25,430 nucleotides of DNA from a virus, in the IMG/VR virus record IMGVR_UViG_3300044616_001123, positions 1-25,430 of that record; one strand, written 5' to 3'. Below are positions 11,467 to 14,467 of this stretch, piece after piece. A program made the position numbers and the translations under genes. The notes beneath the pieces were generated by a model, which had not been told where the DNA came from, searched no databases, and was given only the letters and a program-made list of their open reading frames with translations. Position 1 is the stretch's first letter. Each line of letters starts with the position of its first letter.

Positions 11467-12299
11467 GGAACAATCCGTTCTTTTTGAAGGGTCCGGCAGT
11501 TGTCTCGTTCAGCGGCGGCAGGACGTCCGCCTACATGCTCTGGCGTATCGTCCAAGCGCATGGCGGCGAGCTGCCGAGCGACGTCCTGGTCATCTTCGCC
11601 AACACCGGCAAGGAGATGCCGCAGACGCTCGATTTCGTGCGCGATTGCGGCGAGCGATGGGGCGTGCCGATCATGTGGGTCGAGTACGCCGACCACGACG
11701 AGGTCGCGCAGCGGTGGCGCATCACCAGCTACGCCGACGCCAGCCGCGCGGGCGAGCCGTTCGCGGCGCTGATCCGGCGCAAGAAGATGCTGCCCAACGT
11801 CGTCGCCAGGTTCTGCACGGCCGACCTCAAGATCCGCGCCATGCACCGCATGTTGAAGGCGACGCTGGGCTGGGACGAGTGGACCGAGGCTGTCGGCCTG
11901 CGCGCGGACGAAATGCACAGGGTTGCGCGCATCAAGGCGTCCAACGAAGGCAATCGGTATGTTGTCTGCCCGCTCGCGACCGCAGGGATCACGAAGCGCG
12001 ACGTCGCGGCGTTCTGGGAGCGGCAGAACTTCGATTTGCAGCTACCCAACATCAACGGCCGCACACCGCACGGGAACTGCGACCTGTGCTTCCTCAAGCC
12101 GATCGCCACCGTGCGCGCCATCATGCGCGACATTCCAGGATCCGCTGACTGGTGGGTTCAGCAGGAAAAGGCAACCGGAGCGCGTTGGCGCAATGATTGG
12201 CCTCCATACGCCAAGATTGCCGCCAATGTCGAGGCTAGCGCAGACCTGTTCGCAGAAGAGGGCAGGGCCACTGAATGCTTCTGCAATGGTGATACATGA
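11463..12299 (+). CDS. PP-loop (PAPS-reductase-like) protein
   Basis: 278 residues from GTG 11463, overlapping the upstream stop (GTGA) and preceded by GGAGGGAAGCC. SFSGGRTSAYM contains the PP-loop SGGRTS (17-22), FANTGKEMPQTL (45-56) and the GLRADE segment (145-150) complete the adenine-nucleotide pyrophosphatase fold shared with PAPS reductases, DndC and thiolation enzymes. Cysteines at 118 (FCTADLK), 206 and 209 (NCDLC) and 272 and 274 could bind a metal or Fe-S cluster. Such genes are frequent in phages; proposed roles include sulfur metabolism or nucleic-acid modification, none certain. No other Dnd gene is present, so DNA phosphorothioation is not supported. Confidence 0.82.
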   Translation: MRNNPFFLKGPAVVSFSGGRTSAYMLWRIVQAHGGELPSDVLVIFANTGKEMPQTLDFVRDCGERWGVPIMWVEYADHDEVAQRWRITSYADASRAGEPFAALIRRKKMLPNVVARFCTADLKIRAMHRMLKATLGWDEWTEAVGLRADEMHRVARIKASNEGNRYVVCPLATAGITKRDVAAFWERQNFDLQLPNINGRTPHGNCDLCFLKPIATVRAIMRDIPGSADWWVQQEKATGARWRNDWPPYAKIAANVEASADLFAEEGRATECFCNGDT

Positions 12300-12667
12300 A
12301 GCGGACATGGCGCGGCACCATCCTGGGCGAGCCTGCCAGCAAGGCCAACTCGCGCCGCATCGTGCGGCTTGGGTCGAAACTGCGGGTGATCAAGTCGGAG
12401 AAGGGCCTTGCGTACATCGAGGCGGTTGCGCGTCAGGTGCCGGAACTGCCGGCGCAGGAGCAGCTACTGGAGCCGATTTGCATGACCGCTCACATCTACT
12501 ACGCCTCGCGCAGGCCGGATCTTGACCCGAGCCTCATTCTCGACGCGCTGCAGGGCCGCGTCTACCGCAACGACCGCGCGGTGCGCGAAATGCACCTGTA
12601 TCACCACCTCGACCGGGACAATCCCCGCGCCGAGATCCTTCTGGAGGAGATGACCGATGACGAATGA
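12296..12667 (+). CDS. rusA: RusA-like Holliday junction resolvase
   Basis: 123 residues, start overlapping the upstream stop (ATGA). The N-terminus RGTILGEPASKANSRRIV and the core RRPDLDPSLILDALQGRVYR with NDRAVREMHLYH match the RusA fold: the DLD pair and the later Asp (R-N-D-R) supply the metal-binding acids. The Lys expected a few residues after the first Asp pair in the E. coli enzyme is absent because the DPSLILDAL variant is shorter. The length is normal. Known role: cuts four-way junctions made during RecT-mediated recombination and clears branches before packaging. Confidence 0.85.
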   Translation: MKRTWRGTILGEPASKANSRRIVRLGSKLRVIKSEKGLAYIEAVARQVPELPAQEQLLEPICMTAHIYYASRRPDLDPSLILDALQGRVYRNDRAVREMHLYHHLDRDNPRAEILLEEMTDDE

Positions 12668-12905
12668 CGACCTGACGCGCTACGCCGAGCGCCTGACCCG
12701 CCTGATCGACGCCGCCAACGAGGTGCGCGACGACCTCAAGGAACTAAAGGTCGAGATCAAGTCGGCGGGCTACGACCCGGAGGCGCTGCTGCGCGTCGTG
12801 CAGCTGTGGCGCGACGAGCGCAAGCGGGCGCGCGAGCAGGAGCGGCTGCAGGCGGTGACGCTCTACGCCGACCGGCTGGGCGTCCAGCTCGACCTCGGGA
12901 TCTAG
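12657..12905 (+). CDS. GapR/DUF2312-like protein
   Basis: 82 residues, start overlapping the resolvase end by 11 bases with GGAGGAG upstream. The sequence is helical: LTRYAERLTRLIDAANEVRD, DLKELKVEIKSAGYDPEALL, RVVQLWRDERKRAREQERLQ, then TLYADRLGVQLDL. Helix 1, the DDLKE...AEIK-type stretch, the G-[YF]-D-x-x-AL turn and the R-rich helix match DUF2312, whose best-known member is GapR, an alphaproteobacterial nucleoid protein that tracks overtwisted DNA at replication forks. A phage copy next to the replication genes could aid phage replication or compete with host GapR. It supports an alphaproteobacterial host. Confidence 0.75.
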   Translation: MTNDDLTRYAERLTRLIDAANEVRDDLKELKVEIKSAGYDPEALLRVVQLWRDERKRAREQERLQAVTLYADRLGVQLDLGI

Positions 12906-13048: not shown

Positions 13049-13120
13049 ATGGTTCTCGGATGGCAGGATTTTGTGATCATCGGCATCATCGTCTGGGCGC
13101 TGCTGGACGGCAGGAGGTGA
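13049..13120 (+). CDS. 23-residue single-TM peptide
   Basis: ATG 13049 follows GGAGGAAGCA, a strong ribosome site, and the TGA shares a base with the next ATG. The peptide MVLGWQDFVIIGIIVWALLD ends GRR: one hydrophobic helix with a basic cytosolic end. Its strong ribosome site and its own structured leader argue that it is a real product, not a spacer. Function unknown. The end of this gene also carries the AGGAGG that serves the next gene. Confidence 0.6.
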   Translation: MVLGWQDFVIIGIIVWALLDGRR

Positions 13121-13956
13121 TGATGGCAGGACGACCAGATAGCTGGATGCCGCTGTACGTCGCGGACTACCTCGCGGACACGGCGCATCTGACCGCCGCC
13201 CAGAGCGGCGCCTACCTCCACCTCATCATGGCCTACTGGCGAGCCGGCGGGCCGCTGCGCCTGAGCGACGACGCGCTCGCTCGCGCGGCCAGGATGACGC
13301 CTGACGAGTGGATCGAGAACCGTGACGCGGTGCTTGCGTTCTTCGCGGTCTCGTCCGGTCAGATCCGTCATGGCCGGATCGATCACGAACTGGCCGAGGC
13401 CGCCCGCCTCTACGACGCCCGAAAGCGGCGCACCGAGGCCGCGACCGCCGCGAGGGCTGCGCGCAACGTAACGGACAACGTAACGATGAACGTAACGTCC
13501 GACGTAACGACCAACGTAACGTACACACAACCACAACCACAACCACAACCACCCTTTCCTTCGGAAAGAACCAGTTCTGAGAAACCGGTTCTGGGGGGTG
13601 CAGGGGGGAAGCGCGCAGAGCGCGCCGATCGAGGAACCCGCCTGCCCGACAATTGGTTGCCTTCGGAGGATGACCGGGCCTTCGCCGGCAGCCTCGGCGT
13701 CGCGGTCGAGCGCGAGGCGGCGTCGTTCAGGGATTACTGGCACGCGAAGCCCGGCGCGGACGGGCGGAAAACGAACTGGTCGGCAACCTGGCGCAACTGG
13801 GTGCGCCGCACGAGCGAACGGAGGACGACGAATGGCACAGGATCTCGCACGGGCAACGGTTTTCTCGCAGTCGCTCGGGAGTTGGCTTCAGAGGGCCGAG
13901 ACCGAGACGCCGGGCTCGCAGCTTTCGATCCCCCCGAGCGTCCGGGCCGAGGCTGA
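13120..13956 (+). CDS. YdaU/DUF1376-type replication initiator-like protein
   Basis: 278 residues from ATG 13120, or 277 from the adjacent ATG 13123, which has better spacing (five bases) from AGGAGG. Residues about 8-90 form the DUF1376 (YdaU) domain: WMPLYVADYLADTAHLTAAQ, SGAYLHLIMAYWRAGGPL, DDALARAARMTPDEW. A low-complexity linker (about 115-145) consists of repeats x-N-V-T and then QPQPQPQPP, encoded by iteron-like DNA. The C-terminal part has LPDNWLPSEDDRAFAGSLGV and FRDYWHAKPGADG followed by TNWSATWRNWVRR, the usual end of such proteins. The last 40 or so residues overlap the next gene in another frame and may be incidental. By position it replaces lambda O. Confidence 0.78.
   Translation: MMAGRPDSWMPLYVADYLADTAHLTAAQSGAYLHLIMAYWRAGGPLRLSDDALARAARMTPDEWIENRDAVLAFFAVSSGQIRHGRIDHELAEAARLYDARKRRTEAATAARAARNVTDNVTMNVTSDVTTNVTYTQPQPQPQPPFPSERTSSEKPVLGGAGGKRAERADRGTRLPDNWLPSEDDRAFAGSLGVAVEREAASFRDYWHAKPGADGRKTNWSATWRNWVRRTSERRTTNGTGSRTGNGFLAVARELASEGRDRDAGLAAFDPPERPGRG
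13465..13550 (+). repeat. Intragenic iteron-like array, candidate replication origin
   Basis: Five repeats of AACGTAACG with strict 12-base spacing start at 13465, 13477, 13489, 13501 (first base G) and 13513. They are followed by four ACAACC hexamers at 13527-13550, a strand-asymmetric A/C stretch of lower G+C. The array lies inside the DUF1376 gene, as lambda iterons lie inside O. The repeats encode x-N-V-T units and a Gln-Pro tract. Confidence 0.6.
13554..13595 (+). repeat. Hairpin and direct repeats beside the iteron array
   Basis: CTTTCC-TTC-GGAAAG (13554-13568) is a perfect six-base hairpin. It is followed by two near-identical 13-base units, AACCAGTTCTGAG (13569-13581) and AACCGGTTCTGGG (13583-13595), each with a palindromic core. 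Together with the iterons they resemble origin architecture. Confidence 0.5.
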
Positions 13957-14467
13957 ACGCGCCCTGCAGGCCGTCGAGGACGCGCTGCAGCCCGCTCCGC
14001 AGGCGACGGTCGAGCGGTGGCTCGGCGCGCTCGGGACGCTCGTCGCGGGCCAGCTCAGCGCCGAGGACGCCAGGACGCGGATCGCGGCTTACGCGGCGAT
14101 GCTGAACTATCCGCGCCATGCCTACACCCGGTCGAGCCTCGACGCGGCGGCGCGGTCCTGCAAGTGGTTTCCCTCGTATGCCGAGGTCTGCCAGCTCCTC
14201 GACGCCGAGGTCGCGGCCGCGCACCGCCAGCGGCACCTCCTGCGGCGGGCGATCGCGGCGCCGGTCGAGGGCGACAGGCCGGTGGGGCGGTACTCGGCAA
14301 TGACCGACGCCCAGAGGGCGGAATTCGACGCGGCGATGGCGAAGTTCCGGTCGAGGTTCGCCTCGGATGCTTCCAGAAGCGCCGAGGATGGCGCAGGAGC
14401 GCCGGAAGGGGTTCGGGAGTCAGCGCGACCCACCTGTTCCCCTTCCGCTCTTCCTGAGCGATCCTAG
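13832..14467 (+). CDS. Replication protein, helicase-loader-like (lambda P position)
   Basis: 211 residues from ATG 13832, with GGAGG about ten bases upstream; it overlaps the end of the initiator gene by 125 bases in another frame. An N-terminal helical part (MAQDLARATVFSQSLGSWLQ) leads to ERWLGALGTLVAGQLSAEDA and IAAYAAMLNYPRHAYTRSSL, then CKWFPSYAEVCQLLDAEV, a W-F-P-S-x-x-E pattern seen in several phage helicase loaders. The C-terminus (after about 170) is Ser/Pro/Ala-rich and probably disordered. Gene order after an O-like initiator supports the role; no Walker motif is present, so it is not a DnaC-type ATPase. The function is an inference. Confidence 0.6.
   Translation: MAQDLARATVFSQSLGSWLQRAETETPGSQLSIPPSVRAEAERALQAVEDALQPAPQATVERWLGALGTLVAGQLSAEDARTRIAAYAAMLNYPRHAYTRSSLDAAARSCKWFPSYAEVCQLLDAEVAAAHRQRHLLRRAIAAPVEGDRPVGRYSAMTDAQRAEFDAAMAKFRSRFASDASRSAEDGAGAPEGVRESARPTCSPSALPERS

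Follow-up and report, generated by a model that had tools for sequence, protein, structure and literature searches.

Why should the middle of a phage gene carry the same short palindrome five times at exact steps of 12 bp, and could such a stretch be the origin at which the product of that gene acts? The question is raised by positions 1 to 25,430 of the IMG/VR record IMGVR_UViG_3300044616_001123, a stretch of 25,430 nt that we refer to as the window. The gene concerned encodes a DUF1376 protein, which Pfam still labels as a protein of unknown function, and an initial annotation of the sequence took the repeated units to be an iteron array and a candidate phage origin.

Two well-described systems have a layout of this kind. 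In phage lambda, according to the accessible part of the source, dyad-symmetric iterons lie inside gene O with a high-AT region on one side, and the O protein has an N-terminal DNA-binding part and a C-terminal P-binding part (PMC6022878). In the plasmid pSK41, the available text describes four Rep boxes placed centrally in rep that are bound by the winged-helix N-terminal domain of a RepA_N protein, and an encoded central linker that can be deleted (PMC5703833). An earlier report of an origin in DUF1376 genes was not found in the literature searched, from which subscription papers were mostly missing. One paper on a mycobacteriophage weighs the possibility that the origin lies within repA or upstream of it and, in its accessible portion, gives repeats as absent from the regions checked (PMC7157519).

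The initiator gene and its neighbours

The DUF1376 gene lies at 13,120–13,956 on the plus strand and encodes 278 amino acids, with an ATG at 13,120 (or 13,123) placed 3′ of a GGAGG. Its product scores 77.8 bits against PF07120, over the curated Pfam cut-off of 30.1, and its PHROG matches are to primosomal and replication initiation families (best 3.8e-38). The PF07120 match covers 13,144–13,395 (plus strand) and is predicted from an AlphaFold2 model to be a winged-helix DNA-binding domain. A DnaT-like C-terminal region follows at 13,639–13,833 (plus strand); its match to PF17948 (E 0.0012) reaches 19 bits and falls under the Pfam cut-off of 25, and profile matches to primosomal protein 1/DnaT in the PDB are weak (E 0.17–0.86). 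This region is presumed to make the helicase or primosome contact. No match to a RepA_N or lambda O family was found for the initiator in Pfam at E 0.01, where it matched only DUF1376 and, weakly, DnaT, and a sequence search of the protein against solved structures returned no matches.

The gene order in the window is RusA-like, GapR-like, DUF1376 initiator and large terminase. The RusA-like resolvase gene of this cluster is at 12,296–12,667 (plus strand; PF05866, phrog_140), and the GapR-like DNA-binding gene, 5′ of the initiator gene, is at 12,657–12,905 (plus strand; PF10073, 3.4e-10). A DUF2312 gene stands immediately 5′ of the DUF1376 gene in ppBeUSDA76-2, and in phiAX1 a UPF0335 gene stands one gene ahead of it; we take PF10073 GapR-like, DUF2312 and UPF0335 to be names for one family. 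The DUF1376 gene is overlapped at its 3′ end by an open frame at 13,598–14,467, which could be the next replication gene if it starts near 13,833; at E 0.01 neither Pfam nor PHROG gives a match for it.

The array and the DNA beside it

The array occupies 13,465–13,521 on the plus strand, 345 bp into the coding sequence, past the DNA-binding domain and within the interdomain linker. Its five units start at exact 12-bp steps (13,465, 13,477, 13,489, 13,501 and 13,513), as the initial annotation had described; four of them are AACGTAACG and the fourth, at 13,501, is GACGTAACG. All five share CGTAACG, a 7-bp palindrome with 3-bp arms around a 1-bp centre, which starts at 13,467, 13,479, 13,491, 13,503 and 13,515 and is read in frame 0 as NVT. 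The common core of the array is the palindrome CGTNACG and not AACGTAACG.

Directly 3′ of the iterons is a strand-asymmetric tandem repeat of CACAAC (13,526–13,552, plus strand; 4.5 copies by TRF), which holds the four ACAACC hexamers noted earlier at 13,527, 13,533, 13,539 and 13,545, and then the perfect hairpin CTTTCC-TTC-GGAAAG with its 6-bp stem (13,554–13,568, plus strand). The fixed codon choice also stands: valine is GTA in five of five cases in the array and in none of eight in the rest of the gene, and GTA makes up 5 of 225 valine codons in the ten window ORFs taken as genes. The one part of that first description that did not hold is a pair of 13-base direct repeats, since exact repeats of 11 to 15 bases within 13,465–13,595 are confined to the CACAAC run and past 13,555 no pair of 13-mers turned up at up to one mismatch.

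Nowhere else in the window do three or more like palindromes follow one another at 11- or 12-bp steps, and CGT is the sole half-site that forms such an array. Five of the six copies of CGTWACG in the window are inside it, and none of 200 single-base shuffles of the window yielded three CGTNACG at 12-bp steps. At its 3′ end the array extends into the 70-bp stretch that has the lowest GC content in the window (13,517–13,586, plus strand; GC 0.47), which is a candidate DNA unwinding element. Cumulative GC skew, which the initial annotation had put forward as a check, has no minimum at the array, only a weak maximum near 14.5 kb, and lends the origin no support.

Palindrome pairs in the linkers of DUF1376 genes

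To compare the window with its relatives, DUF1376 genes were fetched by N-terminal peptide patterns only, and linker DNA played no part in their choice. Each of four scans yielded 519 to 589 confirmed relatives, from which the best 80 loci were retained; because of this cut, the share of genes with arrays is not an unbiased estimate for DUF1376 genes as a whole. Genes with fewer than 140 amino acids past the domain start, or with a domain match starting late in the profile, were dropped. Set 1 comprised 159 genes, which gave 103 dereplicated representatives including the window. From the 155 genes of set 2, 30 that resembled set 1 were removed, and dereplication of the others left 54 new representatives. 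As to the search alignments, rows from the motif scan described below make up four of ten in A1 (the window counted) and five of five in A2, while A4 and A5 were built mostly from set 1 subfamilies with arrays already seen. A collection scan with the single domain of the window gave six loci, which stand outside the counts; the unmasked stretch of one of them (L097) is one row of A1.

The linker was defined as codons 85–185 past the domain start, and a like pair as two sites of the form XYZ-N-Z′Y′X′ that have the same half-site and lie a distance d apart. The null was given by synonymous-codon shuffles, in which the protein and its codon counts are kept. Set 1 linkers hold 46 like pairs at 12 bp (null mean 3.7) and 25 at 11 bp (1.4), with a further 15, 12 and 26 at 22, 23 and 24 bp (1.0, 0.7 and 2.6). 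In set 2, 24 genes have linker pairs at 11 bp, 36 in all (null 1.6); three pairs lie at 12 bp (0.3) and 19 at 22 bp (0.4), and neither set has a single linker pair at 10 or 13 bp. Outside the linker, set 1 has three pairs at 11 bp and four at 12 bp in the domain (null 0.2 and 0.7) and two and one in the C-terminus, and the domain part of set 2 has eight at 11 bp (0.2). Of the 103 genes in set 1, 37 have a pair at 11 or 12 bp (null 4.4, maximum 9), as do 26 of the 54 in set 2 (null 2.0, maximum 5); since the representatives share ancestry, these are not independent events. At 9, 10, 13 or 14 bp no gene of either set has a pair, and at 8 or 15 bp three genes of set 1 and one of set 2 have one.

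The initiator genes, 128 kb in all, hold 45 arrays of at least three sites, spread over 44 of the 157 genes, against two in 940 kb of DNA elsewhere at the same loci. The excess is largest for the form found in the window, 3-bp arms with a 1-bp gap (71 pairs against 4.9). Among the remaining gaps between 0 and 8 the counts range from 2 to 60 pairs; the next strongest is a gap of 5 (60 against 4.5), an excess that is expected because neighbouring half-sites in 12-bp arrays produce such pairs. A direct-repeat test that makes no use of palindromes gave p < 0.01 for the linker in 47 of 103 set 1 genes, for the domain in 6 of 103 and for the C-terminus in 0 of 94. The 40 of 103 genes with some half-site in at least three copies are an upper count, because half-sites such as CCG, GCG and CGC are without the 11/12-bp pitch; counts of that kind are probably chance.

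At least one linked pair is present in 80 of the 157 representatives, and the half-site is GCA in 25 of these, GTT in 24, CGT in 10, TGT in 6 and another in 15. Sister subfamilies thus carry arrays of GTT-N-AAC, GCA-N-TGC or TGT-N-ACA, many of them at an 11-bp step. Some genes of the GCA class have a second GCANTGC pair, 11 bp apart, inside the part that codes for the DUF1376 domain, near domain codon 55 and 166–169 bp past the domain start (L148, L156, L350, L363, L364, L367, L387 and L399). No linked palindrome pair is seen in 77 of the 157 genes, about half of the total. Nor was a palindrome array found in YdaU of the E. coli Rac prophage, although Rac is reported, in the accessible part of the source, to have an active origin, oriJ (PMC3945230). 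Among named phages 12 of 129 records were examined and ten have DUF1376 genes. Three of these have a linker palindrome pair (Paracoccus Pkon1, Plectonema Lbo240 and Pseudomonas UFJF_PfDIW6), and the strict palindrome test was negative in the other seven (phiAX1, Rac-SA53, AH02, RHph_N28_2, ppBeUSDA76-2, RHph_TM3_3_3 and phiKX1).

The drop in GC beside the array was surveyed in 65 genes from the four main iteron classes, with GC expressed relative to the gene mean. It is −0.10 in the first 30 bp after the last site and −0.15 at +30 to +60, where 63 of the 65 genes are under their mean; beyond that it is back at the mean. The purine asymmetry, 0.18 directly 3′ of the array, is 0.06–0.08 from 60 bp further on and 0.10–0.12 on the 5′ side. 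The GC-poor stretch beside the array is on this pattern a candidate for an easily melted region.

The same DNA in different reading frames

The repeated NVT and QP residues might instead be a flexible linker that grew by replication slippage, with codons that are alike because the copies are recent. The units of the window are in frame, such linkers are of low complexity and GNVTG repeats are found in other phage proteins, all of which suits that explanation. It can be judged from the reading frame in which related arrays are placed. When viral contigs were scanned for exact matches to two units spaced by 12 bp, 84 stretches were returned, and 22 of the 84 loci have a DUF1376 domain by profile (one of them partial), 11 of the 22 being close kin of the window. 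Among the other DUF1376 loci the array DNA is read as NVT in three (L020, L024 and L039) and as RND, RNV or RNE in three more (L003, L032 and L070), and two genes use both the NVT and the RND-type frame (L044 and L066). The third frame, in which CGTTACG gives STLRS, is limited to L178 and L179, which are the contigs of L048 and L004 and were also found by the motif scan. The comparison of homologues at DNA and protein level that had been proposed at the outset therefore shows that the palindrome and its 11/12-bp pitch are kept, while the amino acids vary with the frame (NVT, RND/RNV or STLRS).

An 11-bp step means that successive copies switch frame within one gene. The sites of the GTT class are spread evenly over the three frames (23, 24 and 22) and more than one frame is used in 24 of 24 genes; in the GCA class this is so in 21 of 25. 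These arrays are beyond the reach of any protein-level repeat.

The remainder of the 84 loci includes GNVTG repeats, non-coding places and other initiators. The GNVTG proteins, which we label tail-fibre-like, provide a control: their 18 loci use all four valine codons and 39 distinct [ND]VT 9-mers, and GTA accounts for 72 of 147 valines, a share that is inflated because the loci were found by AACGTAACG. In the repeats of the window's clade (10 loci, several near-identical) valine is encoded by GTA 42 times, by GTT five times and by no other codon, and outside the repeats GTA accounts for 1 of 94. Judged from these sequences, the array is constrained at the DNA level and not at the protein level, because homologues carry CGT-N-ACG in all three reading frames. 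An explanation by protein repeats was rejected, as the greater part of the signal is lost in synonymous shuffles that preserve the protein, and each step of an 11-bp array shifts the frame; with one DNA motif across three frames and a control that spreads its codons, we consider growth by slippage extremely improbable.

Related arrangements in other initiators

The DUF1376 arrays resemble the lambda origin, as far as its accessible description goes, in having hyphenated-dyad iterons within an initiator gene followed by a GC-poor stretch. They differ in that lambda has four 18-bp inverted repeats, whereas DUF1376 genes have 7-bp palindromes at an 11/12-bp pitch and in several sequence classes, and encode a DUF1376 domain. 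They likewise resemble the pSK41-type RepA_N initiators, on the portion of that account available, in the mid-gene position of the sites, which in pSK41 are bound by a winged-helix N-terminal domain of the kind that is predicted for DUF1376; the latter initiators belong to plasmids instead of phages and have another box sequence.

Further arrangements were found as single cases, given here without statistics, in initiators of the epsilon15 and MAGDWIKMR types and in the mycobacteriophages Bhagsy and JoieB. The linkers of epsilon15 and phiPSA1 read GTCCGC, 11, GTCCGC, 13, GCGGAC, 11, GCGGAC, then an AGAGAAG tract, with extra copies near the gene start. They share with DUF1376 linkers units that are stepped by 11 bp, but these proteins have another N-terminal sequence, and the units are not single palindromes and form an inverted group; none of three epsilon15-type genes (epsilon15, CP2 and phiPSA1) passes the palindrome test. 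Initiator-like proteins of the MAGDWIKMR type (L013, L054, L059, L026 and L038) have VT-rich, iteron-like stretches at two places, one early in the coding sequence and the other in the linker. CGTAACG arrays are found in genes of this type, several of which have an early array and a second in the linker 5′ of AGAGAAG tracts; the two clusters of epsilon15 resemble this layout, and relatives of one such protein are annotated as replication proteins. Gene 68 of Bhagsy has four copies of GGANTCC, at 22, 12 and 11 bp.

In JoieB (L088, 1966–2031) copies of GTAACG, three of them at 12-bp steps, lie just 5′ of the initiator gene, which suggests an origin or an operator upstream of that gene. The second option leads to another reading of the DUF1376 arrays themselves, as an operator or silencer at which the DUF1376 protein or another phage repressor controls the initiator operon, as plasmid iterons also do. 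Palindromes one turn apart would suit any dimeric winged-helix regulator, and the JoieB copies are placed where such a site might be expected. The DUF1376 arrays, however, are mid-gene, in the linkers of very different proteins, with a GC-poor stretch after them, and 107 of the like pairs 11 or 12 bp apart are in linkers against 10 elsewhere in the same genes and none in the flanks examined. A purely regulatory role is on this evidence improbable.

Two kinds of non-coding site also contain the unit. In one phage group two AACGTAACG units 12 bp apart are followed by a conserved GTAATGTTATAATGTTATG-like stretch (L012 near 5989, L043 near 5154, L052 near 852, L057 on the minus strand, and similar loci), a site that may serve the group as an origin or control region of its own. 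Elsewhere in non-coding phage DNA a AACGTAACG pair is followed by a conserved TAAGTTGTTGATT-like sequence (L006 and L069, also L023, L049, L072 and L076).

The DNA-binding domain and the iteron type

The AlphaFold2 model of residues 1–115 has a mean pLDDT of 93.8 and shows winged-helix elements. The initiator entries among its best neighbours in VIA-align are 4pql (Z 6.2), 5kbj (6.1), 4pt7 (6.0) and 4pta (5.7), listed under the labels N-terminal domain of DNA binding protein, Rep-DNA complex, initiator and MDR initiator; we take all four to be RepA of staphylococcal plasmids. The top row is an ORC structure at Z 6.5, and a Z of about 6 is middling and no proof of kinship. Foldseek gave nothing under E 0.001, its best hit being a Crp/Fnr-family regulator at E 0.047. 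DnaD/DnaB initiator domains are not among the best 50 VIA-align entries listed, which excludes nothing.

Iteron type was compared between genes by the identity of their domains and of their C-termini. Genes share an iteron type in 5% of pairs with domain identity under 30%, in 32% at 50–60% and in 98% over 70%. When the C-termini are at least 0.3 identical and the domains under 0.45, the type is shared in 1 of 40 pairs; when the domains are at least 0.5 identical and the C-termini under 0.25, it is shared in 58% of 595 pairs. For 55 of 69 genes the nearest neighbour by domain is of the same type, against 38 of 69 for the nearest neighbour by C-terminus, and the logistic weights for a shared type are 2.54 and −0.09 respectively. 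Close C-termini taken alone (identity of at least 0.4) give a shared type in 0.84 of 115 pairs. The gene pairs in all these comparisons are not independent. As far as sequence comparison goes, the iteron type is tied more closely to the DNA-binding domain of the initiator itself than to the C-terminus; at least in part, this could be simple linkage of neighbouring DNA. No single residue of the recognition helix clearly separates the iteron classes, and clades confound the comparison.

The same result bears on whether the sites are instead bound by a host nucleoid or initiation protein that aids phage replication or recombination. The CGTNACG form is also found in initiators with another N-terminal sequence, which would fit a shared host factor, and nothing specific points to one. 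Iteron types that follow the initiator's own DNA-binding domain argue against it, and we regard a host factor as very improbable.

Discussion

We conclude that the array is very probably the iteron cluster of a phage origin that lies inside the gene for its own initiator, in the layout of lambda O and pSK41 Rep, and is bound by the DUF1376 product. The origin proposed at the start is thus supported by palindromes that are independent of reading frame, by the GC-poor neighbouring DNA, by the predicted winged helix and by an iteron type that tracks this domain. Weighing against it are the genes that have no linked palindrome pair, Rac YdaU among the cases without an array, the GC skew, and the chance that linkage explains the match between domain and iteron type. 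Initiator dimers would line up along one face of the helix, on consecutive CGTAACG palindromes, and would wrap or bend the DNA, after which the CACAAC repeat and the low-GC stretch may melt. The DnaT-like C-terminal region might then recruit a helicase loader or the helicase. The NVT…QPQP peptide would be mostly a by-product of the DNA sequence at that place.

A wider reading, to which we incline with less assurance, is that winged-helix phage initiators in general (DUF1376, the epsilon15 type and DnaT-type actinophage initiators) have as origin an array in the linker at a pitch of one turn and in any frame, and that the DNA-binding domain and its iterons are exchanged as one specificity module. 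The layout of an origin inside an initiator gene is known from lambda O and pSK41; what appears to be new is the use in the DUF1376 family of short palindromic iterons, one turn apart and blind to reading frame.

If the origin is where we place it, DUF1376 would be an origin-binding initiator whose binding site can be read from its own gene, and origins could be placed to the base in many temperate and metagenomic phages. The array would also show plainly, from nature, how a cis-acting site in DNA can be kept across reading frames while coding for a linker. If the domain and its iterons do move as one module, origin and incompatibility type would be readable from sequence for very many uncultured phages, and the linker peptide would be a shadow of the DNA.
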